A DNA stretch of 64,000 nucleotides from Candidatus Eisenbacteria bacterium (GTDB taxonomy: Bacteria; Eisenbacteria; RBG-16-71-46). The notes under the pieces are model-generated. The model saw only the letters and a program-made list of their open reading frames with translations, ran no database searches and was not told the origin of the DNA. Of this stretch, positions 618 to 60,521 are shown piece after piece. The stretch's first letter is position 1. Each line of letters opens with the position of its first letter. The position numbers and the translations under genes were made by a program. The stretch covers positions 62,001 through 126,000 of the forward strand of contig JADLBL010000008.1 in the NCBI GenBank assembly GCA_020847735.1, read 5' to 3'.

Positions 618-3065
618 TCAGAGCCCCTTCGTTCGCAGCCGGAGTGCATTGCCGATCACCGAGACCGAACTGAGGCTCATGGCGGCCGCTGCGATGATCG
701 GACTGAGCAGCCAGCCGAACGTCGGATAGAGCACGCCGGCCGCGATGGGCACGCCGAGGACGTTGTACACGAACGCGAAGAACAGGTTCTGGCGGATGTT
801 GCCCATCGTCGCCCGACTCAGGCGCCGCGCACGCACGATGCCCCGCAGGTCACCCTTGACCAGGGTGACGCCCGCGCTCTCCATCGCGATATCCGCCCCG
901 GTCCCCATCGCGATGCCGACCTGTGCCTGCGAGAGCGCGGGGGCATCGTTGATCCCGTCGCCGGCCATGGCTACGACCCGGCCGTCAGCCTGCAGTTCCT
1001 TGATCTTCGACGCCTTCTGGTCGGGCAGGACACCGGCGAGGACGTCGTCGATACCGAGTTGCCTTGCGACCGCCCTCGCCGTGGTCTCGCTGTCTCCGGT
1101 CAGCATCACGAGGCGCAACCCCTCCCCATGCAACTGACGGATGGCATCCGCCGTGGTGGACTTGATGGGGTCGGCGACACCGATCAACCCCGCGAGCGCC
1201 CCGTCCACGACGGCGTACATCACGGTCTGCCCCGATAGGCGGAGTTCCTCGGCCCGCGTGCCCGTCGCGCCGGGCTCGACTTGGGCTTCGCTCAGCAGCG
1301 CGGCGTTCCCCAGTTGCACGGCATGTCCCTCGACCTCGCCCGACACGCCCATCCCGGTCCGTGACGCGAAACCGGTGGCGTTGGCGAGTGCGATGGCCCG
1401 TTCCTCGGCGCCGGCGACGATCGCGGCGGCGAGGGGGTGCTCGCTGGCCCGCTCCAGGCTCGCGGCGAGCCGCAGCACGTCGGTCTCGGCCCAGGGAGCG
1501 ATCGGGACCACGCTGACAAGCCGCGGCTTGCCCTCGGTGAGCGTGCCGGTCTTGTCCACGACGAGTGTATCGACGGTACGCAACACCTCGATCGCTTCGG
1601 CGTTCCTGAACAGCACGCCCATCGTGGCCCCGCGGCCGGTGGCCACCATGATGGACACGGGCGTGGCCAGCCCCAGGGCGCACGGGCAGGCGATGATCAG
1701 CACGCCGATGGCGTTGAGCGTGGCGTAGGCCATGCGCGGCTCGGGGCCCACGATGGCCCAGACGATGAACGTGATCGCCGCGACAATCACCACGGCGGGC
1801 ACGAAGACCGCGGACACACGGTCGGCCAGCTTCTGGATCGGGGCGCGGCTGCGCTGCGCCTGCGCGACCATCTGGACGATGCGGGCGAGCAGCGTTTCGG
1901 CTCCGACGCGCTCCGCCTGCATGACCAGTGAGCCGGTTCCGTTGACCGTCGCACCGATGACGCGAGAGCCGCGGACCTTCTCGGACGGGATCGGCTCGCC
2001 CGACACCATCGATTCATCCACCGCGCTCTGGCCCTCGACGACCAGGCCATCCACTGGGACCTTCTCCCCCGGCCGCACGCGGAGTCGGTCACCCACGACG
2101 ACCCTGTCGAGAGGAACGTCCTCCTCGGTGCCATCGGCCTTGATTCGGCGAGCAGTCTTCGGTGCGAGGCCGAGCAGGGCGCGGATCGCCGAACTCGTCC
2201 GGCTCCTCGCGCGCAGCTCGAGCACCTGACCGAGCAGCACGAGCGTGACGATCACCGCGGCGGCCTCGAAGTACGCGGCGACCCGGCCACCATGCTCCCG
2301 GAACGCGTTCGGGAACACCTGCGGCGCGACCGTTGCCAGCACGCTCTCCCCGAACGCCATGGAGACGCCCAGGGCGATCAGCGTGAACATGTTCGGACTG
2401 CGATTCGGGATCGACTGCCACCCGCGAACGAAGAATGGCCATCCCGCCCAGAGCACGACGGGCGTGGCGAGCACGAGCTGAAGCCAGGAGGAGACTGTCG
2501 TTCCGATCAGACGTTCGACGGGGCGCCCCGGCAGCATGTCTCCCATCGCGACGATGAGCAGCGGCACCGTGAGGGCAGCGCCCACCCAGAACCGCTTCGT
2601 CATGTCGGCGAGCTCTGGGTTCTCGGCTTCCTCGAGCGACACCGTTCTCGGTTCGAGGGCCATCCCGCAGATCGGGCATGCACCGGGGGCGTCGCGCACG
2701 ATCTCCGGATGCATCGGGCACACCCACTCGGTCCTGGTGGTCGCGGCGGCCGGCTCAACGGGCTCCAGCGCCATCCCGCACCTCGGGCACGTGCCGGGAC
2801 CGGCCTGCCGCACCTCCGGGTGCATGGGACAGGTGTATATCGCGGCGGACCCAGTCGGCGCAGCGGGATGAGTCGCGGAGGCGTGCAAAGCCGGCTCGGG
2901 CTTCGCGAGGTAGCGCTCCGGCTCCGCACGGAACTTCGCCAGGCAGCCCGCGCTGCAGAATCGGTACTCCACTCCCGTGTGAACGTGCCGGTGAGGCGAC
3001 GTCCCCTTGACCTGCATCCCGCACACGGGGTCACGAGAGGTGTTCACCGCCAGAGCGTCGTTCAC
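618..3065 (-). CDS. copA: P1B-type Cu+-transporting ATPase with YHS and two heavy-metal-binding domains
   Basis: Inner-membrane copper export ATPase, 815 aa. Start is GTG at 3065, preceded by GGGAGGAATACC. Domains: YHS metal-binding domain about residues 11-55 (DPVCGMQV ... CSAGC); two CPMHPE...CGM heavy-metal-binding modules about 77-103 and 114-140; then the P-type core. The transmembrane CPC ([12 protein letters not shown], about 458), phosphorylation site [11 protein letters not shown] (about 503) and hinge GDGINDAP (about 702) are all present. YNVLGVP in the penultimate helix fits the P1B-1 (Cu+/Ag+) class. There is no classical N-terminal GMxCxxC HMA domain; the YHS and CPMHPE modules replace it. 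It is the last gene of the unit starting at 11523. Copper specificity is inferred from motifs. Confidence 0.93.
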
Positions 3066-4995: not shown

Positions 4996-7900
4996 CTACG
5001 ACTCTTCCGAGGCTCCCGCCAGGTACTTCTCCGCCGACTTCCGTCCGAACCGGTAGAACACCGCCGGCGTCACGATCGTATCGAGCAGCGTCGAGCTGAT
5101 CAGCCCGCCGAGGATGACCGTGGCCACCGGGTAGAGGATCTCCTTGCCCGGCTCGCCCTTCGCCAGCACCAGCGGGATCAGCGCCAGCCCCGCGGTCAAT
5201 GCGGTCATCAGCACCGGCACCAGCCGCTCGAGCGAGCCGCGCACGACCATGTGCATGTCGAACTGCTCCCCCTCGTCCTTCATCAGGTGCAGGTAGTGCG
5301 AGACCATCATGATCGTGTTTCGCGAGGCGATGCCCGTCAGCGTGATGAATCCGACGAGCGAGGCCACCGAGAATGTGCCGCCGGTCAGGAAGATGGCCAC
5401 AACGCTTCCGATGAGCGCCAACGGGATGTTGAGCAGGATCTGCAGCACGATCGGCACCGACCGGAAATGCGCGAACAGAACGAGGAACATCGCCGCGAGC
5501 GAGAACAGGCTCAGGATGCCGATCAGGCGCGTCGCGGACTCCTGACTCTCGAACTGGCCGCCGTACGTGACGAAGTACCCCGTGGGCAGCGAGACCTGCG
5601 CCCCCACCTTCTTCTCGATCTCGCCAACGACCCGGCCCAGGTCCCTGCCGCTGACGTTGGCCGAGACCACGATGCGGCGTTGGACGTTCTCGTGCTGGAT
5701 GACGTTGGGTCCCCGCGATTCTTCGATCGTGGCGATCGCGGAGAGCGGCACCTTCGCGCCCGAGGGAGTGTCGATGAGCGCGTTGCGGATGGCCTCCAGG
5801 CTCCCGCGGGAGGCATCGTCGAACCTCACCATCAGGTCGAATGTCCGCTGCCCTTCGAGAACCTGTGACACGACACGGCCGTCCAATGCCGTCTCCAGCG
5901 CCTCGTTCAGGTCTCCGACGTTGAGGCCATACCGGGCGAGCGCCACCCGGTCGCCCTGGATCCGCACCTGTGGCACCAGCACCTGCTTCTCCGTCTGCAG
6001 GTCCACCACACCGGGCACGGTGCCCATGACCGCCTGGATCTCGGCGGCCTTGGCGCGCAGCAGGTCCAGATCGTTGCCGAACAGCTTGACCGCGATCTGC
6101 GCCCTCACACCCGAGAGCAGGTGATCGAGCCGGTGCGAGATCGGCTGGCCGATGTTGGAGAACACGCCCGGGATCTCGGCCAACCGCTGCCGAATATCGC
6201 CGAGCACTGCTTCGCGGCTCCGCTTGGAGTGACGGAAGTCGACATCGATCTCAGTGTAGTGCACGCCCTCCGCGTGCTCGTCGAGTTCGGCGCGACCGGT
6301 GCGACGACCGGTCGAGATGACCTCGGGCACGCTCAGCAGCTGCTGCTCGGCGATCGTGCCGATGCGGTTCGACTCGCTGAGCGACGTACCGGGGGCCGCG
6401 ATGACGTTGATCGTGGCCGTCCCTTCGTTGAAGGGCGGCAGGAACTCGCGGCCCATGAGCGGCACCAGCGCGGCCGCCGCGAGCACGAGCACGATCGCCC
6501 CGCCGATCACGACCTCCGGGTGGGGCAGCGTGAAGTGCAGCAACCGCGTGTCCCACTTCTTCAGGTGCCGCACGACGAATGAGTCCCGCTCCTCGGCCAT
6601 GACCTTCGCCTTCGGCAGGAGATACAGGCAGAGCGCCGGCGAGACGGTCAGCGAGACCACGAACGAAGCGAGGATCGAGACGATGTACGCCACCCCGAGC
6701 GGTGCGAACAGGCGGCCCTCGATCCCGCTCAGCGCGAAGAGGGGCAGGAACACGAGCACCACGAGGATGGTGGCGTAGACGATGGAGTTCCGGACCTCGG
6801 ATGATGCCTTGTAGACGACCTCGAGGGCCGGCCGCGGCTCTGCCGCGTGGCGATTCTCGCGCAATCTCCGAAATACGTTCTCGACGTTGACGATTGCGTC
6901 ATCCACGAGTTCGCCGATGGCGATGGCCAGCCCGCCCAGCGTCATCGTGTTGATCGAGATGTTGAAGATGTGGAACACGACCGCGGCTGTGACGAATGAC
7001 AGCGGGATGGCGGTCAGCGTGATCGCGGTCGTGCGGAAGTTGAGCAAGAAGAGGAACAGCACGATGAGCACCAGGATGGCGCCATCGCGGAGTGCTTGCT
7101 CGACGTTTCGGATCGCCGCTTCGATGAAGTTGGCCTGCTTGAACAGGGGCCGCATCTTCACGTCCTTCGGCAGCGAAGGGCGAAGCTCCTTGAGTGCCGC
7201 TTCGATGCTCTTCGTCAGCTCGATCGTGCTGGCACCCGGCTGCTTCTGGATGGAGAGGATCACGGCCGGCTTGCCGTTGACGCTGCCATCGCCGCGCTTC
7301 ACCAGCGTGCCGACCCCGACGCTGCCGACTTCCCTGAGCAGCACCGGCACGCCGTTGTGCGTCGCCACCACCGTGTTGAGCAGCTCATCGGGATTCCGCA
7401 GGCGCCCCAGGTTGCGGATCAGATACTCCTGCGACTGAGCTTCGAGGTAGCCGCCCGTGGTGTTCTCGTTGCTGGCCCCCACCGCCAGCTCGACGTCCTT
7501 GAGGGACAGGCCCAGCGCCGCGAGACGCTGCGGGTTCACCCGCACCTGGTATTGCTTGACCCCGCCGCCGATCGGGATGACCTGCGAGACGCCCGGGATG
7601 GTCAGCAGCCGCTGCCTCACCACCCAATCCGCCAGCGTCCGCATCTCCATCGGCGACGTCGTGCCGTCGGTGCTCTCCAACCCCAGCAGCATGATCTCGC
7701 CCATGATCGAGGAGACCGGCCCCATCGCCGGTGCGACGCCCTTGGGCAGGTGCTCCGCGGCGAGTTGCAGCTTCTCGCCCACCAACTGGCGATCCCGGTA
7801 GATGTCCGTGCCCCAGGCGAACTCGACCGTCACCACCGACAGCCCGATGCCCGACGTGGAGCGCACGCGCTCCACGCCCGGCGCCCCGTTGAGCGTGGTC

Positions 7901-8109
7901 TCGATCGGGAGGCTGACGAGGGTCTCGACTTCCTCGGGGGCGAGGCCCGGGGCTTCGCTCATGACGGTCACGGTCGGACGATTGAGGTCCGGGAACACGT
8001 CAACGGGCAGCTTGATGAGCACCATGCCGCCGTAGATCAGCAGCAGCACGGCTGCCGCAATCACGAACAGCCGGTTGCGCAACGCGAAGAGGATGATGCG
8101 ATCGAGCAT
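4996..8109 (-). CDS. Heavy-metal efflux RND transporter (CusA/CzcA family)
   Basis: 1037 aa, typical for the HAE-RND family. Inner-membrane proton-driven pump of a tripartite complex with the MFP (8122-9600) and outer-membrane factor (9597-10997). The N-terminus LDRIILFALRNR and the porter segment APGLAPEEVETLV are family hallmarks. The proton-relay segment in TM4 (GGLAIAIGELVDDAIVNVEN, about residues 393-415) keeps acidic residues typical of metal pumps. ATG at 8109 follows GAGGGGAACGACC. The neighbouring copA and YHS modules suggest Cu/Ag, but specificity cannot be fixed from sequence alone. Confidence 0.93.
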   Translation of the reverse strand: MLDRIILFALRNRLFVIAAAVLLLIYGGMVLIKLPVDVFPDLNRPTVTVMSEAPGLAPEEVETLVSLPIETTLNGAPGVERVRSTSGIGLSVVTVEFAWGTDIYRDRQLVGEKLQLAAEHLPKGVAPAMGPVSSIMGEIMLLGLESTDGTTSPMEMRTLADWVVRQRLLTIPGVSQVIPIGGGVKQYQVRVNPQRLAALGLSLKDVELAVGASNENTTGGYLEAQSQEYLIRNLGRLRNPDELLNTVVATHNGVPVLLREVGSVGVGTLVKRGDGSVNGKPAVILSIQKQPGASTIELTKSIEAALKELRPSLPKDVKMRPLFKQANFIEAAIRNVEQALRDGAILVLIVLFLFLLNFRTTAITLTAIPLSFVTAAVVFHIFNISINTMTLGGLAIAIGELVDDAIVNVENVFRRLRENRHAAEPRPALEVVYKASSEVRNSIVYATILVVLVFLPLFALSGIEGRLFAPLGVAYIVSILASFVVSLTVSPALCLYLLPKAKVMAEERDSFVVRHLKKWDTRLLHFTLPHPEVVIGGAIVLVLAAAALVPLMGREFLPPFNEGTATINVIAAPGTSLSESNRIGTIAEQQLLSVPEVISTGRRTGRAELDEHAEGVHYTEIDVDFRHSKRSREAVLGDIRQRLAEIPGVFSNIGQPISHRLDHLLSGVRAQIAVKLFGNDLDLLRAKAAEIQAVMGTVPGVVDLQTEKQVLVPQVRIQGDRVALARYGLNVGDLNEALETALDGRVVSQVLEGQRTFDLMVRFDDASRGSLEAIRNALIDTPSGAKVPLSAIATIEESRGPNVIQHENVQRRIVVSANVSGRDLGRVVGEIEKKVGAQVSLPTGYFVTYGGQFESQESATRLIGILSLFSLAAMFLVLFAHFRSVPIVLQILLNIPLALIGSVVAIFLTGGTFSVASLVGFITLTGIASRNTIMMVSHYLHLMKDEGEQFDMHMVVRGSLERLVPVLMTALTAGLALIPLVLAKGEPGKEILYPVATVILGGLISSTLLDTIVTPAVFYRFGRKSAEKYLAGASEES

Positions 8110-8121
8110 GGGTCGTTCCCC

Positions 8122-9600
8122 TCAGTTTCCGAGACTGACGACCGGAGCCGTCAGCAGGGGATAACCACCCGTGGCGACCACCCGGTCGCCGGGAGCGAGC
8201 TCGCCGGTCACCACGACGCGCGCACCGAGGCTGGTCCCGAGCGTGACTTCGCGTGCCGTGAAACGCTCGGGCGCGGTGTGGACGAAGACGAGTTTGCGTC
8301 CGTCCTTCTCGAATACGGCGCTTCTCGGGATCACCAGCGCCGATTCCACTCCGCCCTGCTCGATGCCGACGTCCACCAGCGCCCCGATCCGCAGCCGGCC
8401 ACCGGGATTGGGGACCTCGAACCACACTTCGATGGCGCCCGGTACCTCGCCCTGCGTGACCCCCAGCGCGACGCGCCGGCCCGCAAGCGACAGGTCCGGC
8501 ATGGTCTGTGACGTGATCACCGCATGCGTCGAGGCCTGGACGCTGGCGATGTCCGCCTCGTACACGTCGGCATGCACCCAGACCACCGAGGGATCGAGCA
8601 GGGTCATGAGCCTCTGCCCCGCCTCGACCAGTTGGCCGTTCACGACGAACACGCCCGTGAGCACGCCCGTTATGGGCACGCGAAGCGCGAGGTCGTCTAC
8701 GACCCTGAGCTGCGCGATCGACTGCCCCTTGGTCACGCCCTGCCCCAGCACCGGGGCCTGCCCACCGGCGAAGAAGATGCGCCCCGACTGCGGGGCCACG
8801 ATCTCGATCTCGCCGCCTCCGCGCGGAGCGACTCGCCCGAGCACGCTCAACCGCCTCTGAACCGGCCGGCGCGCGAGCGGCTCGGTACGGATCCCCATCA
8901 GGAACTGGGATTCCTTGGCGACATAGACTTGCGCGCCGGGACCGACCGGAGCGCCGGACGCTGTCGGCGCATCGTCGTGGCCCTCGTGCGCACGCGCGGT
9001 GGGCGCGAGCACGAAGCACAGGATGAGCGATGCCGCGACCGCCGGCGTGCGTCGACGCGCCAGGAGGACCAGTCCCGCGAGCAGAGCGACCGCGAGACCG
9101 AGCAGCCACAGCCACGGCCATCCACCCTGTGACGGGCGGGCAGTGTCCGCATGCTCGCGGCTCACCTCGAGCCCCGAGAGCGCGAAGCGTTCCTCCCCCT
9201 TTGGATCCGCAACCGTGACCAGCACCGTATACGAACCCGTGTCAGCCGGCGCCTGGAAGGAAGCCGTGTACACGCCCGGGCGCGCGGTCGCAGTCGCGGC
9301 CCCCGACCACAGTTCACGTGCCTCGGATCGCAGGACCAACCCGACCTTGGCCCCCGCGACGGGCGCGTTGGTCATGAAATCGCTGAGGTAGAGATCGAAC
9401 TCGCTCTTGAGGCCGGGCGTGAGCGCGTCGTTCTTGAGCACGACTTCGTAGCGGTCCGACTGTGCCGAGAGCACGTGCCGGCTCGAGATCGCGGCGGCAC
9501 CGGTCCCCGGCGCCGCGTCATGCCCTTCGTGGGCGTCCGCGACCCGGGCCAGAGTGCTTCCCGCGAGGAGGAGCACCAGGAGCGTGGCGAGGCGTCTCAT
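8122..9600 (-). CDS. Membrane-fusion protein fused to an N-terminal exported domain
   Basis: 492 aa. ATG at 9600 overlaps the outer-membrane-factor stop (ATGA). Two modules are visible. Residues 1-25 are a signal peptide followed by AHEGHD (about 21-26), then a beta-rich domain like YtkA/FixH-type copper-protein domains, then a TM (about 155-178). A second signal-peptide-like stretch (ILCFVLAPTARA) is followed by another AHEGHDD (about 201-208) and a CusB/CzcB-type adaptor with barrel-sandwich and beta-barrel segments (APQSGRIFF, VWVHADVYEADI). It reads as two exported proteins fused end to end. Role: periplasmic adaptor linking the RND pump to the outer-membrane factor. The His motifs probably bind metal. 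Confidence 0.85.
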   Translation of the reverse strand: MRRLATLLVLLLAGSTLARVADAHEGHDAAPGTGAAAISSRHVLSAQSDRYEVVLKNDALTPGLKSEFDLYLSDFMTNAPVAGAKVGLVLRSEARELWSGAATATARPGVYTASFQAPADTGSYTVLVTVADPKGEERFALSGLEVSREHADTARPSQGGWPWLWLLGLAVALLAGLVLLARRRTPAVAASLILCFVLAPTARAHEGHDDAPTASGAPVGPGAQVYVAKESQFLMGIRTEPLARRPVQRRLSVLGRVAPRGGGEIEIVAPQSGRIFFAGGQAPVLGQGVTKGQSIAQLRVVDDLALRVPITGVLTGVFVVNGQLVEAGQRLMTLLDPSVVWVHADVYEADIASVQASTHAVITSQTMPDLSLAGRRVALGVTQGEVPGAIEVWFEVPNPGGRLRIGALVDVGIEQGGVESALVIPRSAVFEKDGRKLVFVHTAPERFTAREVTLGTSLGARVVVTGELAPGDRVVATGGYPLLTAPVVSLGN

Positions 9601-10997
9601 CGGGCACCTGCCGCGTTGAGGTGAGCCAGATCGAGCCCGACCGCCGCTTCCAGTTGACCACGGGCGTCCCAATAGGCCTCACCCGCCTCCAGTTGCCCGA
9701 GCAACGTGTCCACGAGTCGTCCCTTCTGCGTGAGGTAGGAATCGAGCGAGATGCGTCCGTCGGTGTAGGCCTCGCGGATCAACGCAAGGTCCTGCCGCAC
9801 GTGAGTCGATCGCTCGAGGTAGAGCCGGTAGAGCCCGGCGGCGTCCTCGAACCGCCGCACGGCACCCAGCACTTCCATCTGCGTCAGCAGGCGATAGCGG
9901 TCGTACTCCGCCACGCTGCGACCGATCTCGGCGGACGCCCGGGCGCGACCTGCCTGGTTCTTCTGCCACAGGGGCAGCGGAGCGCTGATGCGGGCGGTCC
10001 AGAGGTTGTCCGTGGAGCTCGCGCCTGAGATTCCACCGATGATCGCGGGATCGCCGCTGAAGTCACCACTGGAGAAGGAGCGGCGGTCCCTCGTCAGTCC
10101 CAGTCCCAGCGTGAGGTCTGGTCGTCCTTCGAGCTCCGCCACCCGGAGTTCCGCCTGGCGCTCGGCGATCTGGCGTCGGAAGACGTCGCCGGCTGCGCGC
10201 ACCCGCAGCGCCGATGCCACGACGGAATCCTCGGGCGCTTGCAGCGAATCCACGCTCACCTCGCCGCTGAGGCGGATGGAGTCGGGAAGCGCCCGGCCGA
10301 TCGCGAGGCCAAGCGAGACAAGCGCCTGACGAAGATCACTGCGCGCGCGGCGGCCCTGCGCTTCCATCCGGAGCAGGTCCAGCTCCGTCAGGCGTCCCGT
10401 CACGGGCGTGATGGAACCGTCCCGCACGCGAGCCTGCGTGGCCTGAACAACGTGGCGGTCCAGATCGGCCAGTTCGTCTGAGAGGACGAGGCGATCCTGA
10501 AGGAAGAGCGCACGCTCGAAACGCGCGCGGATGTCCGACTCGAGCTCCTGCCGTCTCGCGCTCCATTGCGCCGCGGTGGTCAGGGAGCGTGAAGTGGCGG
10601 CCGACTGGCGCGCCGAGCGCTTGCCCCAGAGCTCCAACTCCTGGCTGACGCCGAAGTCCAGCGTGCCCTCGGAACCCGAACCAAGCGTCTGGCCGCCCCG
10701 GGCCGTCTGTAGCTCGAGTTGCGGATTGAACGCGGGAACTCCGGCGAACGCCGAGTCGGCTCGCGCAACGGCAAGATTCCCTGCGGCGACGCGCAGGTCC
10801 GGATGCGAGTAGTAAGCGATGGCGAGCGCCCGCTCCAGCGTGAGAGGGCTCTCGAGGGGCTCGAACGAGCCGCTTGCCGAAGGAGTCACCGTTGCGCTAC
10901 CTAGGTCGGATTGAGCGAGGGAGCGCCTCGCAGCTCCCGGCACGAGGAGTGCAGCGCACGCGATCGCGAAGAGGCGATGCGTCAGCCGTGAAGACAT
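9597..10997 (-). CDS. Outer-membrane efflux protein (TolC/CusC/CzcC family)
   Basis: 466 aa with a signal peptide (LFAIACAALLVPGAARRSLA). Long Ala/Arg/Glu-rich helical repeats match the two tandem OEP domains that form the trimeric outer-membrane channel; the motif LDFGVSQELELWGKR is characteristic of CusC/CzcC. It is upstream of, and overlaps by 4 nt, the membrane-fusion gene, completing a tripartite exporter. About 100 bp separates it from the small exported protein gene upstream. Start ATG at 10997; alternatives were not needed because the signal peptide begins there. Confidence 0.88.
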   Translation of the reverse strand: MSSRLTHRLFAIACAALLVPGAARRSLAQSDLGSATVTPSASGSFEPLESPLTLERALAIAYYSHPDLRVAAGNLAVARADSAFAGVPAFNPQLELQTARGGQTLGSGSEGTLDFGVSQELELWGKRSARQSAATSRSLTTAAQWSARRQELESDIRARFERALFLQDRLVLSDELADLDRHVVQATQARVRDGSITPVTGRLTELDLLRMEAQGRRARSDLRQALVSLGLAIGRALPDSIRLSGEVSVDSLQAPEDSVVASALRVRAAGDVFRRQIAERQAELRVAELEGRPDLTLGLGLTRDRRSFSSGDFSGDPAIIGGISGASSTDNLWTARISAPLPLWQKNQAGRARASAEIGRSVAEYDRYRLLTQMEVLGAVRRFEDAAGLYRLYLERSTHVRQDLALIREAYTDGRISLDSYLTQKGRLVDTLLGQLEAGEAYWDARGQLEAAVGLDLAHLNAAGAR

Positions 10998-13828: not shown

Positions 13829-14446
13829 TCAGCCCACCATTCTGCAGTGGCAGTAGACGAACTCCTGTTCGCTGCCCCACGGAGTCAGGTGCATTTCCTC
13901 GCAGCTTTCGACCTTCTCGAACGGAGAGCCGAACTCACCGTGAAGCTCGTCGGGGCTGTATCGCGTGACCTCAAAGCCACTGCACTGCTTTGGGCCATGC
14001 GGCCCGAACGTGGCGACCACGATGTGTCCGCCTGGCTTCAAGGCACGTCGCACGGCTTCGACGTAGCGGCGGCGGGCCCCGGTCTCGCACAGGAAGTGAA
14101 ACACGGCCCGATCGTGCCAGAAATCAAGGCAGTGCTCCTGGAGCTCTATCTGCGTGATGTCCGCGACCACCCAACTCACCTTTGCGGCTCGTGGGCCGAG
14201 TCGCCTCTTCGCTCCTGCGATGGCGGTCATCGAAATATCGAGCACCGTGAGATCTGTGAAGCCACGATCGAGCAGGTCGTCCACGAGGGTGGACGCGCCC
14301 CCGCCTACATCAATAATCGCGGCCCTCGCTTCGAGATGAGCGCCCTGGATGAAGGCCAAGGAGCGCTCGAGGTGCGGGCGGTACCAGCTCACTCGGTCGG
14401 CGGCTTTCTGGTGATAGATGGCATCCCAATCTTCCTGCTCGGTCAT
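13829..14446 (-). CDS. Class I SAM-dependent methyltransferase
   Basis: 205 aa. ATG at 14446 (MTEQEDWDAIY); an upstream ATG at 14464 would add six residues. Motif I is IIDVGGGAS (about residue 45), followed by the acidic post-I strand (LTVLDIS) and motif II/III segments (VVADITQ, LKPGGHIVVATFGP). The N-terminal WDAIYHQKAADRVSWY is typical of a family of small methyltransferases, some acting on metalloids or thiols. It is the last gene after ArsR, MtrA-like protein, lipoprotein and membrane protein, 38 bp from its neighbour, so it is likely co-transcribed. Substrate unknown; methylation linked to the MtrA-like protein is inference. Confidence 0.8.
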   Translation of the reverse strand: MTEQEDWDAIYHQKAADRVSWYRPHLERSLAFIQGAHLEARAAIIDVGGGASTLVDDLLDRGFTDLTVLDISMTAIAGAKRRLGPRAAKVSWVVADITQIELQEHCLDFWHDRAVFHFLCETGARRRYVEAVRRALKPGGHIVVATFGPHGPKQCSGFEVTRYSPDELHGEFGSPFEKVESCEEMHLTPWGSEQEFVYCHCRMVG

Positions 14447-14484
14447 CTGAAGAAGCCCCCTCATCGCACGTCGCGTTCAAGCTC

Positions 14485-14988
14485 TCAGGGCTTGAGCGGG
14501 AGTTTCGGTGTGCAGTCTGCGCACGCAGGCATTCGAGCCCGCCGGACAATCAATACCGCGCTCAAGACGACGGAAAGTGTCGTGACTAGCGCAACCAGTG
14601 GCTTGAGGAGCCCCAGTATCGACGAACCGAAGAGGGAGAGGTAGACCGCCAGCATCGGCGAGCCGCAGCAACCGATCAGGAAGCAGCCGGCTCCGTAGAG
14701 AACGCCGAGCATGGTCACACCGCCGACGATGCCCTGTGCCGCTTGTCTCCGCTGGCGGATGGTCAGCGCGAGCGCGAAGACGGTGAAGGCAGCCGCGAGC
14801 GCGTAGGAGTAGCCGAACCAGTAGTCGCCCTGCCCGACATACCGCGCCCATGCGGATTGGTCAGGCGCGCCCGCGACATGTACCCAGTGCGACGCGACGT
14901 GGGCGTGCTGCCAACTGAGGACGCCAAAGTGCAGCCCCAGCGTCGCGGCGAAGGCGAGGGCCGCCAGGGCGAAGTCCGACCGGCTCAC
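14485..14988 (-). CDS. Multi-pass membrane protein with Cys-rich helix
   Basis: 167 aa, family not recognised. GTG at 14988 overlaps the preceding stop (GTGA). Four or five hydrophobic helices are visible: about residues 6-25, one after YWFGYSYALAAAF, one around GVLYGAGCFLIGCC, and two C-terminal. Intramembrane Cys (GCFLIGCC) and C-terminal Cys (PACADCTP) could bind metal or form disulfides. It follows the OB-like lipoprotein in the ArsR-led operon; transport is a guess from topology and context. Confidence 0.55.
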   Translation of the reverse strand: MSRSDFALAALAFAATLGLHFGVLSWQHAHVASHWVHVAGAPDQSAWARYVGQGDYWFGYSYALAAAFTVFALALTIRQRRQAAQGIVGGVTMLGVLYGAGCFLIGCCGSPMLAVYLSLFGSSILGLLKPLVALVTTLSVVLSAVLIVRRARMPACADCTPKLPLKP

Positions 14989-15374
14989 CGCACCGCCTCG
15001 ACCCTTTCGGCACGTACGATGTAACGACCCGGCGTGGACTGCTCGAGGCGACCCGACACGCGCACGGCGCTTGCCGTCTCGGGCATTGCGCCCGCGAAGG
15101 CAACCGGTACCTCGTAAGAAGCGCACCCGAGTTCGCGGCAGGAGCGGTACTCCGCCTCGTCGATTACCGTGAACATGTGGCCTTCCGAACCAATCTCCGA
15201 CACCACGCCGCGGACCGTGATGCCCCTGCCCGCGTAGCCCTCCGGCGATTTCGCGAGTTGTTCGACCCCGATATCAGCAGGCTGCGCCGCCTTGGCGAGA
15301 GGTTTGCGGTGGCAGCCGGCGAGCGTGAAGGAAGCGAGCAGTAGGACCACCGCGCCTCGAGCAGTTGCTTTCAC
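14985..15374 (-). CDS. Lipoprotein with OB-fold-like domain
   Basis: 129 aa. GTG at 15374 overlaps the stop of the MtrA-like gene and is preceded by GGAGGGAAG. A short hydrophobic leader ends in LAGC, a clear lipobox. The remainder (YAGRGITVRGVVSEIGSEG ... AVRVSGRLEQ) has the strand pattern of tRNA_anti-like/OB-fold lipoproteins. A pair of Cys (SCRELGC) is present. It should be membrane-anchored outside the cytoplasm. It is part of the ArsR-led operon; function unknown. Confidence 0.6.
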   Translation of the reverse strand: MKATARGAVVLLLASFTLAGCHRKPLAKAAQPADIGVEQLAKSPEGYAGRGITVRGVVSEIGSEGHMFTVIDEAEYRSCRELGCASYEVPVAFAGAMPETASAVRVSGRLEQSTPGRYIVRAERVEAVR

Positions 15375-16543
15375 GACTTCTTCCCTCCCAACATGATGGG
15401 GCTCGAGTGGCAGCCGCACCCGCTCCCGCATTCCGGCTCGGGGGCACGGTCCTGAACATAGGGCTCGCCCGTGGCGAGCGAACGTTCAGCGAGCGACAGT
15501 TCCTTCCCCAGGTACGCAGCGTGGTCGAGCCGAGACACGATGCCGCGGGTGATCACGGTCGCGACCATTTCGTCGGAGCGCACACCCTCCACAACGAGGG
15601 AGAGCACGCCGTCGTTCTTGTAGTGCTCGAGCACGATGACTCCGCGCGCGCGGTCAGGCAGCACGACGAAGTAGCCCTTCGGATCGAGCACCAGCCGAGC
15701 AGGAGGCTCTGCCCAGATCGGCGTCGGACCTACCCCAGCCGTCTCGGCCGGCCGGCGACTCTTCGACGGCGGCAGCGCTGCGACCGAGGCGAGGACGCCC
15801 GGCAGATCCTCGGTTCCGATGCGGTCGACGATGGCGATCTCGCGGCGGAACGTCTCAACGGCCTCCCGGGAGACGTTCTTGATGACCGGCCGCCGCCCCG
15901 GGGCCCCGATGATGAACCCCCGCTCATCGAGACCGTTCGCGACCAGGCTGAGCAGGCTCTGCCCAGGCAGGTGTCCGATCCGCTGCTGCGAGTCGGCCCC
16001 GCAGAGCAGCAGTGTGGTCAGGTTCGAGTTCGCCAGCACGTTCGTGAGGATCCGCTCGATCCCGAGGTTCTCGGTGTAGACGGCGCCGACGATTGCCACG
16101 CGAGCAGGTGCCGCGGTGGCGATGGGTTCGACCAGGTGTTCCGACGTGAGCACGCACACCGCCACGTCGCCTGCGGCATCGAGGACGCGGAAGTTCCCGG
16201 GATAGGGCGGCCATCCGGCCCGACGCTCGGGAATGTCGGTCGGGCACGCCGAATCCGCCTCGATCGCGGCTTCCGGGAACTCCTCGACGGCCAGGTTGAG
16301 TACATTGGCGGGCCAACACACGGTGCAACCGAGGCAGTCGTACTCGCTGGGGATCAGCCGCGAGAGCCCCTCGGTCACGACGGGCAGCAACTCGCGCGTC
16401 GCCTCGGCCGGCAGTGAGGGCATGACCTTGTGCAACTGTTCCACCGTGCCACGGAAGCACCCGCAACGATGGCACTTCTTTGCCGCGGTGGCGGAACGCA
16501 GGTCTGCGAGTAGCGTGGTCAGACGCTCGGCTCGCCCGGGCAT
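15371..16543 (-). CDS. MtrA-like / DUF4346 protein with Cys-rich N-terminus
   Basis: 390 aa. ATG at 16543 lies 8 nt after GAGGGGG; a GTG at 16552 would overlap the ArsR stop. Central residues match the methyltransferase subunit A (MtrA) domain of archaeal tetrahydromethanopterin S-methyltransferase: YTENLGIERILTNVLANSN, LLLCGADS, GHLPGQSL and FIIGAPGRRPVIKN. The C-terminal part matches DUF4346 (LVLDPKGYFVVL). The N-terminal CHRCGCF and CLGCTVCWP clusters suggest an Fe-S or metal site, and the C-terminus has CGSGCGCHSS. MtrA binds a corrinoid in archaea; whether this one does is unknown. Expression under ArsR points to metal(loid) or thiol-linked methyl transfer (inference). Confidence 0.75.
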   Translation of the reverse strand: MPGRAERLTTLLADLRSATAAKKCHRCGCFRGTVEQLHKVMPSLPAEATRELLPVVTEGLSRLIPSEYDCLGCTVCWPANVLNLAVEEFPEAAIEADSACPTDIPERRAGWPPYPGNFRVLDAAGDVAVCVLTSEHLVEPIATAAPARVAIVGAVYTENLGIERILTNVLANSNLTTLLLCGADSQQRIGHLPGQSLLSLVANGLDERGFIIGAPGRRPVIKNVSREAVETFRREIAIVDRIGTEDLPGVLASVAALPPSKSRRPAETAGVGPTPIWAEPPARLVLDPKGYFVVLPDRARGVIVLEHYKNDGVLSLVVEGVRSDEMVATVITRGIVSRLDHAAYLGKELSLAERSLATGEPYVQDRAPEPECGSGCGCHSSPIMLGGKKS

Positions 16544-16548
16544 CGCGC

Positions 16549-16938
16549 TCACCCCCTCGCGCTCGGGAGCAGGTGCGCCTTCTGGATTCCCAGCAGGCAC
16601 TTGCCGTCCTCGCGCAGCCGGAGCCGCTTGCGCAGTTCAGCCCGGTCTCTCTTGACGTGATCGGCCGGAATGCCGGCTACCGCTTGAAGTACGAGTGAAC
16701 GGAACGCCAGTCGATCGTCGGCAACCCGGTAGTAGATCCAGCGTCCCTCGCGCCGGCTCTCGAGAAGGCCCGCCGACCTGAGTGCCGCGCAGTGCTTGGA
16801 GACGTTGTACTGGGATTCCTCGAGGCTGTCGGCCAGCTCGCAGACGCAGAGCTCCGTGCCGCCCTCGAGCAGCAATCGCACCAAGCGCAGGCGCGTCGGA
16901 TCGCCAAGCGCCTTGAAGACTGTCGCAAACTCCTGCAT
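16549..16938 (-). CDS. ArsR-family metalloregulator
   Basis: 129 aa. ATG at 16938 follows GGGAGGCACG. The winged-helix HTH spans ALGDPTRLRLVRLLLE through NVSKHCAALRSAGLLESRREG. ELCVCEL at the start of the DNA-recognition region is the classical As(III)/Sb(III)-type CxC site, and the wing is RREGRWIYYRV. It is the first gene of a five-gene unit (MtrA-like, lipoprotein, membrane protein, methyltransferase), so it probably represses that unit and itself until metal binds. Confidence 0.9.
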   Translation of the reverse strand: MQEFATVFKALGDPTRLRLVRLLLEGGTELCVCELADSLEESQYNVSKHCAALRSAGLLESRREGRWIYYRVADDRLAFRSLVLQAVAGIPADHVKRDRAELRKRLRLREDGKCLLGIQKAHLLPSARG

Positions 16939-16953: not shown

Positions 16954-16975
16954 CATATGCGCAACTGGGCATATT
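16954..16975. promoter_or_regulatory. Candidate ArsR operator
   Basis: CATATGC near 16954-16960 and GCATATT near 16969-16975 form an imperfect inverted pair (6 of 7) about 8 bp apart, 16 bp upstream of the ArsR start. ATAT-rich dyads at this place are typical ArsR/SmtB sites. Confidence 0.55.
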
Positions 16976-45914: not shown

Positions 45915-46931
45915 TCACAGCGAGTCAAGCCACGCCAACAGCGCCGCATCCCTCCTCCATCGTGGCGGCCGTGATGGACGCGCAATGCCATCGACCTGCT
46001 CAAGAGCCTGTCGCTTGGTCTCGACATTCGCCTGAGCGTAGAGGAACGTCGTGTCGAGGTGCGAGTGCCCCAGCCAGCTCTGGATCACGGTGACGTCGAC
46101 GCCGGCGGCGACGAGGTGGACGGCCGCCGTGTGCCGGAACGTGTGCGGCGTGACGCGCTTCTCGCGCAGGTGCGGATGCAGTCGCTCGGCGGCGATCACG
46201 TACTGGCGGAGCCGAAGCCGCACACCCGAGGCGTGTAGTGGCTGGCCAAAGCGGTTGGTGAAGAGCGGCTCATCCAGGCCACGCGGACAGCGCCCGAGCA
46301 AGGCGCCGATGAGGTCGGCGGTCTCGGGCCAGAGCGGGCAGATGCGTTCCTTCCGGCCCTTCCCCATGAAGCGGACCTGGGCCGGAGCATCGAGCCGGGT
46401 GGCGCTCGGCGTCAGGGTGAGGGCTTCCTGAATCCGGGCGCCGGTGTTGTAGAGCAGCGCCAACAGTGCGTGGTCACGCTGGCCGGTGAGACTCTTCCGA
46501 TCTGGCTGGGCCAGGATCGCGGCGACCTATTCGGGATCGAGGTAAGTGATCGATCGACGCGTCGACCGCTTTGTCGGAATCCTCAGCACGGCCGCACACT
46601 GCTCCGCCACGAATGGCTCGCGCGCGGCTACGAACAGGAAGAAGCTGCGCAGCGCCGCCAGCCGACAGTTGCGCGTGCTGACGCTGCCGTGCCGCACGCG
46701 CTCAACATGCTCGAGGAACGCCAGCACCTCGACCGCAGTGAGATCAGCGAAACCGAGAGCGGCCACCTCGCGGCGGCGGCGTCCGGCCACAAAGCGCAGG
46801 AATAGGCGCCAGCTGTCGCGGTAGGCATGGATCGTGTGGGGTGAGGCGTCGCGCTGCCGGGCCAGCCAGTCGTGGAAGAATGCCTGGAGCAGTTGCGGGA
46901 GCGACGGGGTCGTGAGCATGATGTCCTCCAT
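45915..46931 (-). pseudogene. RIT recombinase C, amber-interrupted
   Basis: Tyrosine recombinase of about 337 codons from ATG at 46931. One in-frame TAG at 46527-46529 falls inside YLDPE-stop-VAAIL, where relatives have Glu (GAG to TAG is one change). Downstream sequence keeps the catalytic R (YNTGARIQEAL), HTFRHTAAVH and WLGHSHLDTTFLYA. Unless amber is suppressed it is dead. Confidence 0.85.
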
Positions 46932-47696
46932 CGAGGCTGGCGAGGAGCGCCGCACCGTGGGCGCGGAAACGCTCGCTCGCCAGGCCGAGCAACTCCTGGG
47001 TGATGGTGAGATAGACGAGCGTCGCGTGGATGTCGCGGTGCCCGAGATAGGTTGAGAGGTAGGGCAGTCGGCTCTGCGGGTTGATCCCTTGTCGGTACCA
47101 CTCGAGCATCCGGTGGACGACGAACGTGTGGCGAAGATCGTGGACGCGAGGCCCGCGACGGCCCGCCTCCGGCTTGAGGCCCGCGGCGCGGATGACGAGG
47201 CGCAGGAGTTGTTCGGCAGTGATGTACGCGTAGCCACCCGACTCGTGGCAGAACAGCCGCGCATCGGGCTGTTGCGAGAGCCCGGCCCGTGCTCGCAGTT
47301 CGAGGTAGTCGCTGAGGGCGGCCACAACCGTCGGCTTGATCGGCAATCGGCGGGACTTGAAGAACTTGGTCTCGCGGATCTCGAGCGAGTTCTCCCCGGG
47401 CCGGAGATCACGCAGTTCCAGCCCGACGATCTCGCCCATCCGCAGGCCGACGCAGTAGCCCAGGACGATCATGGTGTGGAGCGTCGGCGGACGCAGTGGA
47501 GCGTGCGGCGATGGGAACTCGCGTGCCGTGCGCAGCAGGAGCCCGATCTCTTCGCGCGAATAGATGTGCGGGCGGCGCCGCTGTCGGAGCACGGCTTGCT
47601 TCAGCAAGCGGTCGAGAGCCGGCGGAGCCGGGACCTGCTGGTCGACCCGCTGCAGGGCTCGCAATAGCGTCCGTCCGATCCGGACGTGTTCGTACT
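46744..47696 (-). pseudogene. RIT recombinase B, C-terminal part (split by IS21)
   Basis: Continues the frame from 50001-50588: AVQY joins EHVRIGRTLLRALQRVD after removal of the IS and one GTACT. Catalytic motifs: CVGLRMGEIVGL, HDLRHTFVVHRML, YLGHRDIHATLVYL. Joined length about 511 aa. It overlaps the start of recombinase C by about 190 bp. Confidence 0.85.
47692..47696. repeat. Target-site duplication GTACT (left)
   Basis: Second copy at 50001-50005; flanks the IS21 element. Confidence 0.85.
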
Positions 47697-47749
47697 TGTG
47701 AACGAACATGGAAAAGTGATCCATCCCGAACATTGAAAAGTAGACCACC
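47697..47749. repeat. IS21 left end
   Basis: TGTGAACGAACATGGAAAAG followed by a second GAACATTGAAAAGTAGACC copy; mirrors the right end. Confidence 0.8.
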
Positions 47750-47842
47750 CCTGTCGGGGGGCTCCGCCGGGGCCACGACCCGACACGCCGTAGGCTGACC
47801 CTCCGAGAGGGCGCGTGGAGCGCCCCGGTCCGGAGGGAGCCG

Positions 47843-49120
47843 ATGGTCCGACAGGAGGTCTGGATGGACATCAAGCTGATGCACCGGCAGGGCCAGTCCC
47901 TGCGACAGATCGCCCGGGTCACCGGGCTCTCCCGCGTGACGGTGCGACGCATCCTGAGCTCGCCGGCGCCCAAGGGCTATGGCCCGCGCCGACCGCGACC
48001 GAGCAAGTTGGAACCGTACGTTTCCCGGGTCGAGGCGCTGCTGGCCGAACGCCCGCGCTCGACCGCGAGTTGGTTGCACCGCCAACTCGGCCGCGAGGGC
48101 TTCGCCGGCTGCTACGAGACGGTGAAGCGCTGGGTCCGCGAGCGGCGACGCGAAGAGCGGGCTCGCGCACGAGCGTGCGTGCGCTTCGAGACTGCAGCCG
48201 GGATCGAGGCGCAGTTCGACTGGAAGGGCCCGGTCCGCGGCCTGATCGAGGGGCAGCCTGGCCTGCCGGTGCACTTCTTCCGCTTCGTACTCGCGTGGTC
48301 GCGCGCGCGCTGGACGCTGGTCGTGCCCGACCTTCGGCTCGCCGCGACGCTGGCGGCGATCCGCTGGGCGTTCGAGCGTGCCGGCGGCGTGCCGGCCCGG
48401 CTGGTGCCCGACAACCCGAAGACGCTGGTGCTGCGGCCCAAGCCGCATCTCGAGATGCACCCGCAGTTCCTCGCGTTCTGCCGTCACTACGGCTGCGAGC
48501 CCGACCCGGCCTGGCCGTATCACCCCGAGCGCAAGGGCAAGACCGAGCGATCGCTGCGGGACCTCGACGAGGAGGGCGTGCTCGGGACAACCTACCCGAG
48601 CGTCGCCGCGCTGCAGGCGGCGGTCAGCGGCGTCGACGCGCTGCGCTTGGAGCGCGTGCACACCACCACGGGCGAAGCCCCCGCGGCGCGACTCGAACGT
48701 GAGCGTGCGGCGTTGCAGCCGCTACCCGAGATCGCGTTCGATCCGCGCGTCGCCGAGATCCGGCGCGTCCTGTCCGACTGCACCGTCAGCCTGCACGGTG
48801 CGCGTTACTCGGTGCCCTACGTGCACGTCGGCCGACGCGTCGTGCTCAAGGCCGATCCGCTCGGGGACCAGCTCGAGATCTTCGCGGGCGCCGAGTGCGT
48901 GGCGCGTCATGCGCTGGCCTCGCGCGGCACCTGGACGGTGCTCGAGGAACACGTGGCGCCGCTGCGCCGGCCACGCTTCGAGCGGTTGCGCGAACGGGCT
49001 GCGGTCGCGACGCCCGCACCGACCCCGCCGGCGCCGCGATCGGTCGTGCCGTGGCCGCTCGAGCGCGTCGAGCAGCGCGACATCGCCGCGTACGAGCAGG
49101 CCGTGGGAGGTCCGCGATGA
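47843..49120 (+). CDS. istA: IS21 transposase
   Basis: 425 aa. ATG at 47843 with GGAGGGAGCCG. N-terminal HTH (SLRQIARVTGLSRVTVRRIL), then DDE core: first Asp in EAQFDWKG, second in LVPDNPKTLV, Glu in HPERKGKTERSL. Cuts and joins IS ends together with IstB. It appears intact. Confidence 0.95.
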   Translation: MVRQEVWMDIKLMHRQGQSLRQIARVTGLSRVTVRRILSSPAPKGYGPRRPRPSKLEPYVSRVEALLAERPRSTASWLHRQLGREGFAGCYETVKRWVRERRREERARARACVRFETAAGIEAQFDWKGPVRGLIEGQPGLPVHFFRFVLAWSRARWTLVVPDLRLAATLAAIRWAFERAGGVPARLVPDNPKTLVLRPKPHLEMHPQFLAFCRHYGCEPDPAWPYHPERKGKTERSLRDLDEEGVLGTTYPSVAALQAAVSGVDALRLERVHTTTGEAPAARLERERAALQPLPEIAFDPRVAEIRRVLSDCTVSLHGARYSVPYVHVGRRVVLKADPLGDQLEIFAGAECVARHALASRGTWTVLEEHVAPLRRPRFERLRERAAVATPAPTPPAPRSVVPWPLERVEQRDIAAYEQAVGGPR

Positions 49121-49905
49121 GTCAGCCGACCTACGATCGTCTCGTCACCCATCTGGACCGGCTCGGGCTGGTGCGCGCCAAGGACATCCTGCCCGAGGTC
49201 TTGAAGGCGGCGGAGCAAAACGCCGATGGCCATGCCGCCGTGCTCGATCGGCTGTTCGAGGAGGAGATCGCCGCCCGCGAGGAACGCCGCATCCGCGGCT
49301 CGCTGCGCCTGGCCGGGCTGCCGTTCGTGCGCACGCTCGACACGTTCGACTTCGCCTTCCAGCCCTCGCTCGATCGGGCGCAGGTCCTCGACCTCGCCTC
49401 GCTGGCGTTCCTCGCGCGCAAGGAGAACGTCCTGCTGCTCGGGCCGCCCGGCGTCGGCAAGACGCACCTCGCCGTCGCACTCGCCATCTGCGCGTGCCAG
49501 AACGGCGCCTCGGTCTACTTCACCACGCTCGACGACATGATCCGCAAGCTGGCAGCCGCCGATCGTGTCGGCAAGCTCGACGCCAAGCTGCGCACGTTCA
49601 CGACCAAGAGCCAGCTGCTCGTCGTCGACGAGGTCGGCTACCTGCCGCTGACGCGAGCCGAGGCCAACTACCTCTTCCAGGTCGTCTCGCACCGCTACGA
49701 ACGCACCAGCGTGATCCTGACGTCGAACAAGTCGGTCAGCGAGTGGCCGGAGGTCTTCGGCGACCACGCCATCGCCACCGCGATCCTCGACCGGCTGCTG
49801 CACCACAGTCACGTGCTCTCGATCAAGGGCAACAGCTACCGGCTCCGCGAGCGGGCCATCGCTGCGACCCGCGTCCCCGAACCCCAACCCGTACCGGTGG
49901 CGTGA
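49117..49905 (+). CDS. istB: IS21 helper ATPase
   Basis: 262 aa. ATG at 49117 overlaps the istA stop (ATGA). Walker A GPPGVGKTHL, Walker B LLVVDEVGYLPL. AAA+ protein needed for IstA target selection. Intact. Confidence 0.95.
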   Translation: MSQPTYDRLVTHLDRLGLVRAKDILPEVLKAAEQNADGHAAVLDRLFEEEIAAREERRIRGSLRLAGLPFVRTLDTFDFAFQPSLDRAQVLDLASLAFLARKENVLLLGPPGVGKTHLAVALAICACQNGASVYFTTLDDMIRKLAAADRVGKLDAKLRTFTTKSQLLVVDEVGYLPLTRAEANYLFQVVSHRYERTSVILTSNKSVSEWPEVFGDHAIATAILDRLLHHSHVLSIKGNSYRLRERAIAATRVPEPQPVPVA

Positions 49906-49949
49906 GGACCCCGGACGACCCCGTCCACACACCGCCCCGCCCCAGGGGG

Positions 49950-50000
49950 TGGTCCACTTTTCAATGTTCGAAGTGGTCTACTTCTCAATGTTCGTTGACA
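49950..50000. repeat. IS21 right end
   Basis: Inverted counterpart of the left end: GTCCACTTTTCAATGTTCG and CTACTTCTCAATGTTCGTTG then ACA. Confidence 0.8.
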
Positions 50001-50005
50001 GTACT
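50001..50005. repeat. Target-site duplication GTACT (right)
   Basis: Second copy at 47692-47696. Confidence 0.85.
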
Positions 50006-50588
50006 GGACTGCCGGCGAGCGGGGCTCGGCGGCGTAGGCGTGGATCAGACCATCGAGCGGCTCCGTGTCAGCCCCGGCTCGCTCCTGGGCAAAGCGGTCC
50101 AGGCGGAGGTACGGCTTCTCGTCGCACTTGTATCCGAGTGCCCGCATGCGCTCGACGTGATCCCGCAGCGCCGGGCCAACGTGGCTGCCGTAGCGAGGTG
50201 GTGGCCGCAGTCGTGCGAGAGCTGCGTCTGGATCCTCACTGAGCAGAGCGGGCACGATCGAGCGTGTTCCGCGGGGGCGACACGCCGCACGCAGTTCCGC
50301 AAACGGGTTGGCTTGCAGGTGGCCGCCGGCCACCAACCAGTCGAGGAAGGTGTCAACGATCTGGGCACGTCGGATCACGAGGGAGCGCGGCGAGACCGTG
50401 TCTCCCGCCCGCAGCCATGACTCGATCACTCCTCGGGACAGGGTCGTCGTCCGCGATCGCGCCATTACGAACCGCTGGAAGCGTCGCAGGACCGAAGCAC
50501 AGCGTCGCCGCGAACGCAGGCCCCGATAGCCGAGTTGATCGACGTACTGCTTGAGCAGTGCGAACGAGGCATCCGGCCAGCCAGTCAT
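50001..50588 (-). pseudogene. RIT recombinase B, N-terminal part (split by IS21)
   Basis: ATG at 50588 overlaps the stop of recombinase A (ATGA). It contains the SAM-like DNA-binding half (LLKQYVDQLGYRGLRSRRRC) but no catalytic residues; the frame continues into the IS for a few codons only. The C-terminal part is at 46744-47696. Confidence 0.85.
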
Positions 50589-51835: not shown

Positions 51836-51937
51836 GGTGCACCTCCCCGGGTTGGAACCGGAATGGTGCACCCCTCCCGTTATGTTGAGGAACAGTGGTT
51901 CGATCTGTCGGCCGGGGCGGCTTCTGTGGCGTCAGAT

Positions 51938-51987
51938 GCGCATAATCAGGCCCTGCCCATAATGCCGGTTATGACGAGGTACGCATA
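51938..51987. repeat. RIT right terminal repeats
   Basis: Contains GCGCATAAT-CAGGCC-CTGCCCATAAT (51938-51963), the inverted counterpart of the left end, plus an outer pair GGTTATG / CGCATAAG within 51968-51990 that could be the recombinase core site. Confidence 0.7.
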
Positions 51988-51991
51988 AGCG
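51988..51991. repeat. Target-site duplication AGCG (right)
   Basis: Matches 42730-42733. Confidence 0.75.
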
Positions 51992-52300
51992 GGAGCCGAA
52001 CGTGGCGCCAACGGCCAGGGACCGGTCGTACGACGACCTGAGCCCGATCGCGAGCGCGTAGTCGCGGGCGCTGTGACCGTTGGTGCAGGTCAGGACGCCG
52101 AACATCTGCGCCCCTTCCCGCGCCAGCGCGAACTGCGACGACGTGATCTCGAGCCCGAAGCGCGGGATGTGCAGCTCGACTTCTTCGACGAAGCGGTCGT
52201 ACGGCACCGGGAAGTAGCTCTCGGTCGGCTCGGGAACGGGAACGGCGGCGAGGTCGGCCTTGGTGGCCTCCCACCCGCCACGGTGCAGCATGAGCGTCAT
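51988..52300 (-). pseudogene. DUF932 gene, 5' (N-terminal) half
   Basis: ATG at 52300, Shine-Dalgarno AGGAGGGCGCC. Encodes the DUF932 N-terminal half (YFPVPYDRFVEEVELHIPRF, DYALAIGLRSSYDRSLAVG, ATFGSR) before running into the RIT end. DUF932 proteins are common on plasmids and phages; role unclear. Confidence 0.9.
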
Positions 52301-52309
52301 GGCGCCCTC

Positions 52310-60456: not shown

Positions 60457-60521
60457 GCCGCCACTCTACAAGCTAATAGAATCCTGCCAAGATGGGGGCA
60501 CGCGCCGTTTTCGCGCCAGCG

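Follow-up and report, generated by a model that had tools for sequence, protein, structure and literature searches.

A putative corrinoid protein of the MtrA family encoded beside metal(loid) sensors in bacterial resistance islands

Our analysis of a stretch of 64,000 nucleotides from a Candidatus Eisenbacteria bacterium (GenBank assembly GCA_020847735.1, contig JADLBL010000008.1, positions 62,001 to 126,000; this whole stretch is referred to here as the window) revealed a minus-strand operon in which the gene of an ArsR-type metal sensor is followed by a gene encoding a fusion of an MtrA domain with a DUF4346 domain. The best-supported claim of this work is that the fusion protein represents a corrinoid protein which belongs to resistance islands and is regulated by metal(loid)s. 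We are highly confident that the operon serves a metal-regulated resistance function, in which a toxic-metal sensor probably switches on the gene group. The same type of gene recurs behind thiol-type metal(loid) sensors in many bacteria, in line with a first-pass annotation of the window, made from the sequence alone, that had drawn attention to this combination.

The operon consists of five genes that run from position 16938 down to 13829 and encode, in this order, the ArsR regulator, the MtrA/DUF4346 protein, a lipoprotein (LipOB), a membrane protein (MemCC) and an S-adenosylmethionine (SAM)-dependent methyltransferase (Table 1; genes were called mechanically throughout, and some open reading frames [ORFs] are spurious). 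The three joints among the first four genes are 4-bp GTGA overlaps, and a gap of 20 bp precedes the methyltransferase gene. Because the order of the first four genes is kept in the near relatives L007, L008 and L065 (L numbers denote the loci of the comparison set described below), a chance arrangement can be excluded, and the compact ArsR-led unit proposed in the first-pass annotation is confirmed. The proposed ArsR-type dyad was found as well: the sequence ATATGC-N8-GCATAT upstream of arsR is the sole match in the 64 kb, and with up to one mismatch allowed, chance would give 0.03 matches, while 3 of 100 shuffled sequences contain one. A comparable dyad (ATATGAG-N6-CTCATAT) lies 5′ of the ArsR gene of L080.

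The ArsR protein of the window scores 96.6 bits against NF033788, the ArsR/SmtB metalloregulator family (cut-off, 55 bits), carries the metal-site motif ELCVCEL together with a C-terminal GKC, and is 60 to 66% identical to the ArsR proteins of L007 to L009 and L065. Its top matches in the PDB are SmtB and ArsR at 3e-10; the antimony repressor AntR (6uvu) is not among its PDB matches at 1e-8, and AntR-like types are confined to related loci. LipOB contains a lipobox-like LAGC and has two conserved cysteines (EYRSCRELGCA), and its family recurs beside the MtrA-like gene. Its description as an OB-like lipoprotein thus stands as far as the lipoprotein is concerned, while the OB assignment is weak (Table 1). 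The Pfam scan assigned no family to MemCC, whose seed cluster comprises 22 genes in 22 loci and to which the window gene was assigned by a hidden Markov model (HMM).

In all, 98 loci were compared: the 80 best of 508 relatives from a scan of species genomes, a choice that favours the kin of the window; four plasmid records of Planococcus and Paraburkholderia; 13 stretches (L114 to L126) that were chosen irrespective of how closely they resemble the window, several of them on short contigs; and the window itself. Duplicates and near copies occur among them (L003 to L005; L035 and L118), so that the counts are not independent. An ArsR gene was the immediate same-strand upstream neighbour of the MtrA-like gene in 42 of the 98 loci, compared with 7 of 352 control genes located at least six places away in the same DNA. 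When up to three upstream genes were considered, ArsR was present in 59/98 loci; counting both sides, 62/98 loci had an ArsR or MerR gene no more than three genes away.

The sensors belong to several types, which were assigned by sequence pattern, with the regulators of L037 and L052 alone compared with solved structures. AntR-like (antimony) regulators were found in 29 loci, all 29 of them with a Cys-X9-Cys pair, and the L037 regulator matched 6uvu at 9e-38 with 61% identity; this structure was identified by its PDB title, "AntR antimony-specific transcriptional repressor", which was looked up with a poor model (pLDDT 58.5) used for the title only. CadC-like regulators account for another 21 loci, the one tested (L052) matching 9t6r at 1.4e-21 and CadC (1u2w) at 4e-19, and the ELCVCEL type of the window or a similar one occurs in 13. 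Beyond the ArsR family, a divergent CadR/PbrR-like MerR accompanies the gene in L006 from Paraburkholderia (148.5 bits, just below the cut-off of 151.45), and a mer operon with a true MerR and MerA-like and MerC proteins adjoins it in L011 from Dechloromonas hortensis MA-1. On the Planococcus plasmids, which include L004 from Planococcus kocurii, the gene order is ArsR, HMA, a Cd/Zn/Pb/Hg-type ATPase directly upstream, and the MtrA-like gene. In L018, L039 and L040 the ArsR gene is separated from the MtrA-like gene by one for a MerC-family protein (identified by a scan in L018 and by membership of the L018 cluster in L039 and L040). Metal control of the MtrA-like gene is thus well supported, and since several types of soft-metal sensor stand beside one and the same gene, soft metals appear to be what the gene deals with; we regard this as the best evidence. 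Among the neighbours we also observed a V4R-domain protein between ArsR and the MtrA-like gene in L019, L023 and L081, and P-type ATPases in which CSC or APC replaces the usual CPC (L003, L005, L076 and L085, and L022, L036, L061, L077 and L114), which possibly form a metalloid-type subclass.

The MtrA/DUF4346 protein comprises, in 393-residue numbering, an N-terminal domain with six cysteines, the MtrA domain (residues 112 to 276, approximately), DUF4346 (approximately 289 to 368) and a cysteine-rich tail (CGSGCGC). The fusion and its cysteine clusters, both named in the first-pass annotation, were verified, with MtrA (PF04208) recognized by Pfam at 4.6e-32 and 111.5 bits (gathering threshold, 25) and PterinBD-DUF4346 at 1e-18, likewise above gathering. 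A profile built from 48 homologues out of 85 loci matched solved MtrA chains at 7e-51. The AlphaFold model of the protein (pLDDT 86.8, pTM 0.62) was used whole in a structure search, which covered the MtrA part only and yielded cobalamin-bound MtrA (5laa; Z 24.5 over 158 residues) and apo MtrA (5l8x; Z 24.0, root mean square deviation 1.6 over 159 residues). According to the MtrA study PMC4915002, cobalt is bound by His84, which is held by Glu54, and Thr53, Gly57 and Asn64 contact the nucleotide tail of the corrinoid. In our alignment these residues correspond to H194, E161, T160, G164 and N171 of the window protein, and all five are invariant in 89/89 homologues. We consider it likely that the MtrA-like protein binds a corrinoid.

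Six N-terminal cysteines (C27, C30, C32, C73, C76 and C79) are equally invariant, both in the 48-row alignment and in the 86 rows with a complete N-terminus. The remaining three rows of the 89-row alignment and tree, all from Planococcus, were shortened at the N-terminus, so that their N-terminal columns and their long branch are unreliable; the full-length sequences contain all six cysteines. Nine of the 98 loci were left out of the tree, having no single MtrA-like ORF of at least 340 residues. In the Dethiobacter metagenome-assembled genome (MAG) that contains L076, the six-cysteine domain and the MtrA-DUF4346 part are encoded by separate ORFs (7382-8179 of the locus and the preceding MtrA-type ORF), and a search of the whole genome read an internal stop.

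The partners of the gene vary. LipOB and MemCC alone accompany it in 18 of the 98 loci and a thioredoxin-like protein (Trx6) with CcdA alone in another 18, and further loci contain one of these modules or mixtures. The CcdA partner was identified as DsbD_TM (1.3e-23), the thioredoxin-like partner matched Pfam weakly, and in L033 the reading frame of the MtrA-like protein continues into that of a thioredoxin-like protein. The SAM methyltransferase is indeed encoded in the operon, as the first-pass annotation had stated, but it is not a defining part: its family yielded 10 ORFs over the 98 loci, none of them in the nearest relatives L007, L008 and L065, which rules it out as a core component. 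Neither does it represent the arsenite methyltransferase ArsM, scoring 17.9 bits against NF041537 (cut-off, 510) and 16.1 bits against NF040539 (cut-off, 240). In four loci (L016, L034, L029 and L044), pairs of small transporters that we named by eye as SMR-type lie beside the MtrA-like gene or its ArsR; they possibly serve lipophilic methylated metal cations.

The gene is rare and its distribution scattered, just as a mobile resistance gene would be distributed. None of the 46 other genomes of the phylum (47 were searched) contained an MtrA-like gene, and this rules out vertical inheritance. Searches of three further groups, each centred on a genome already known to carry the gene, gave full or near-full matches in 6 of 274 genomes in the class of G062 (13 at an E value of 0.001, seven of them tiny) and, with partial matches included, 8 matching genomes out of 247 for the phylum of G066 and 4 out of 299 for that of G101. 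In the tree, the window clusters with L007, L008, L009 and L065 (support 100/100), all of which share its ArsR type, and the other ArsR types are scattered. We obtained no match in viral_contigs, and the three proteins compared with PADLOC fell into none of its families; a phage or viral origin and a defence system were accordingly dismissed. The record titles of L053 and L063 are tagged Afr_mines, which is consistent with metal-rich habitats.

How might such a protein act? We envisage that the ArsR-type sensor, with its thiol site formed by CVC and GKC, leaves the dyad in response to a soft metal or metalloid, for example As(III), Sb(III), Pb, Cd or Hg, whereupon the operon is expressed. The MtrA-like protein would carry a corrinoid through His194, hydrogen-bonded to Glu161, while the six-cysteine domain, perhaps an Fe-S or metal site, would reduce the cobalt or hold the metal, and the cysteine tail of many members would capture metal. 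DUF4346 may be the part that binds the methyl donor or presents it; methyl-tetrahydrofolate, SAM or another compound could be this donor. The bound metal(loid) would then receive a methyl group from the methyl-corrinoid and so become more volatile or easier to export, and the envelope partners (lipoprotein and MemCC here, thioredoxin-like protein and CcdA elsewhere) would handle thiols, electrons or the product. Related chemistry is known: methylcobalamin can methylate As(III) non-enzymatically under reducing conditions, as noted in PMC6950371, and a 2021 review gives methylcobalamin a possible part in the methylation of Sb(V) and calls the genes for antimony methylation unknown (PMC8453088). 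That the protein transfers methyl groups onto metal(loid)s, as its corrinoid ligands, cysteine domains and sensors together with this chemistry lead us to infer, is a tentative proposal. We put the fuller explanation just as guardedly, namely that a metal(loid)-induced corrinoid protein moves a methyl group to, or possibly from, Sb, As, Hg, Pb or a similar element.

A number of observations weigh against methyl transfer to metal(loid)s. As regards the methyl donor, its partner is not fixed across the loci: the SAM methyltransferase is optional, and MtrH, the donor partner in archaeal-type methyl transfer, is absent from this genome, which rules out such a pathway for this host, and exceeds the family cut-off in 2 of 31 host genomes, being near full length only in G101. 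What had been described as an archaeal methanogenesis domain is thus an MtrA fold without the methanogenesis. A near-full-length protein of the dihydropteroate-synthase-like family TIGR00284 occurs in just 2 of 21 hosts and was likewise discarded as a partner. As regards the corrinoid, this genome encodes the B12-dependent methionine synthase MetH and hence uses a corrinoid, but of 48 host genomes (hosts of 48 of the 80 best loci, many of them MAGs) 29 had a match to Met_synt_B12, so that signs of B12 use do not extend to all hosts; no cobalamin riboswitch reached the threshold in the window or in six related loci, and control by such an element was set aside. At least two cysteines follow DUF4346 in 51 of 74 rows, a count to which 15 of the 89 rows did not contribute, as they did not fit the tail-finding pattern. 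None of the tallied recurring modules is present in 22 of the 98 loci. Finally, no ArsR gene lies within four genes in 34 of the 98 loci, and the stretches L114 to L126 have one within that distance in 5 of 13. The first-pass annotation had held that homologues lacking ArsR would speak against its proposal, and such homologues exist alongside the 59 loci mentioned above; some of the 34 end at a contig break or have MerR-type, P-type ATPase or Czc genes in place of ArsR. The MtrA-like and DUF4346 domains could also carry out a methyl transfer that does not involve a metal but is required during metal stress.

Three other readings use much of the same evidence. The protein might act in the opposite direction, as a corrinoid-dependent demethylase or dealkylase that passes the organic group of methyl-As, methyl-Sb, methyl-Hg, organo-Pb or organo-Sn to cob(I)alamin and leaves the freed metal to the adjoining efflux pumps. 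Transporters of the MerC and SMR types are linked to organometals, and MerC-like neighbours occur in L018, L039, L040 and L115, while six loci have small transporters of the SMR type; in addition, P-type ATPase or Czc metal pumps adjoin many loci, and MerA-like proteins are encoded in four. The sensors, however, resemble those for inorganic Sb, Cd, Pb and Hg, and no MerB-type lyase was recognized among the neighbours, where no profile search for MerB was made. We consider a demethylase unlikely. We give no more credence to a reading in which the MtrA fold has been borrowed for metal binding or redox purposes, so that the N-terminal and tail cysteines would sequester soft metals and hand them to pumps or to a CcdA/thioredoxin relay with no methyl chemistry at all. 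Such a role would suit the six invariant N-terminal cysteines, the frequent cysteine tails, the thiol-type partners (DsbD_TM/CcdA, the thioredoxin-like protein with its weak Pfam match, and MemCC) and the fused arrangement in L033, yet a pure metal binder would not need H194, E161 and T160 in every one of the 89 rows.

In the third reading, the protein would be a corrinoid methyl carrier that replaces a thiol- or zinc-dependent methyltransferase poisoned by soft metals, bypassing a block in one-carbon metabolism under metal stress, with the metal not being a substrate. DUF4346 also occurs in TIGR00284, which hints at a pterin link, and SAM methyltransferases are encoded near some members. Nevertheless, it is thiol proteins of the envelope and not folate enzymes that recur as partners, and the nearest relatives do without the SAM methyltransferase; a bypass is quite improbable in our judgement. 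Methyl transfer by a metal(loid)-induced corrinoid protein remains the explanation that we favour.

In the window, the operon lies in a dense island of metal-efflux genes (618-27505). The CopA-like ATPase and the RND, CusB-like and OEP efflux genes (Table 1) lie on one side of it, and on its other side are an Ftr1-like permease, a second ArsR, a Cd/Zn/Pb/Hg-type ATPase, a CDF transporter and a second RND pump; a DUF302 protein is also encoded in the island. The recombinase genes farther along suggest a mobile region.

Table 1. Features of the operon and of its surroundings in the window
Feature	Position	Strand	Remarks
CopA-like ATPase	618-3065		YHS and HMBD domains
RND, CusB-like and OEP efflux genes	4996-10997		
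Class I SAM-dependent methyltransferase	13829-14464	-	Optional member; Methyltransf_25, 4.7e-13
MemCC membrane protein	14485-14988	-	GCFLIGCCGSPML motif; about five hydrophobic segments; HMM-recognized cluster member
LipOB, small secreted lipoprotein, possibly OB-like	14985-15374	-	tRNA_anti-like, E 0.022, below gathering
MtrA/DUF4346 fusion protein	15371-16552	-	GTG start, ATG possible at 16543; Pfam MtrA and PterinBD-DUF4346
ArsR/SmtB-family regulator	16549-16938	-	HTH_5, 4.8e-12; NF033788 above cut-off
Operator-like dyad ATATGC-N8-GCATAT	16955-16974		Just upstream of arsR; 0 mismatches
Phage-type integrase and serine recombinase genes	45915-62520		
Pyridine nucleotide-disulphide oxidoreductase, C-terminal part	63636-63998		At window end; by eye resembles mercuric reductase MerA

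We found no description of a metal-sensor-linked MtrA/DUF4346 system within the open-licence text of PubMed Central, although MtrAH is reported from many archaea and bacteria, with unclear roles, in PMC9635834. The family itself is already in the databases: the window protein is a full-length match to NF002128 (PRK00964.1-6, "tetrahydromethanopterin S-methyltransferase subunit A") at an E value of 5.3e-123, with 411 bits below the cut-off of 568, and a member from Dechloromonas hortensis passes this cut-off with 572.6 bits. For these bacterial proteins the name is probably wrong. Our results suggest that it is misleading and that such genes should be left out when methanogenesis genes are counted in metagenomes.

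Compared with MtrA, the corrinoid subunit of tetrahydromethanopterin:coenzyme M methyltransferase, the window protein shares domain homology, fold, axial histidine and supporting glutamate. In contrast to MtrA, it has no detected membrane helix and no MtrH partner and adds the six-cysteine domain and DUF4346, to which members often add a cysteine tail, and the MtrA-like genes are bacterial and stand beside metal sensors. With the ant operon the family is connected through the AntR-like regulators of the related loci, including the one tested; the ArsR of the window is of another type, and MtrA-like genes are not known from the ant operon. A system that would work alike is the mercury-methylating HgcAB, which combines a corrinoid protein with a cysteine-rich partner domain and is said to be under ArsR-type control in some hosts. 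From HgcAB the window protein differs in having a corrinoid domain of the MtrA family and not of the CdhD type, a histidine instead of a cysteine below the cobalt, and one fused chain; it is not HgcA itself, as a Pfam scan to an E value of 0.1 gave MtrA and DUF4346 alone and no CdhD-type domain. The family may embody an unrecognized route by which toxic metals gain methyl groups or lose them. It is a more speculative and rather doubtful idea that it constitutes a widespread, horizontally moved, one-protein counterpart of HgcAB that methylates antimony along with further soft metal(loid)s, and a first gene candidate for antimony biomethylation. Such a protein would contribute its own cysteine domain, possibly with an Fe-S cluster, and a tail for catching metal, and sensors of antimony, arsenic, cadmium, lead or mercury would turn on its gene. 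Even so, a corrinoid protein repeatedly encoded behind antimony-, cadmium-, lead- and mercury-type sensors offers a concrete and testable candidate for antimony methylation.

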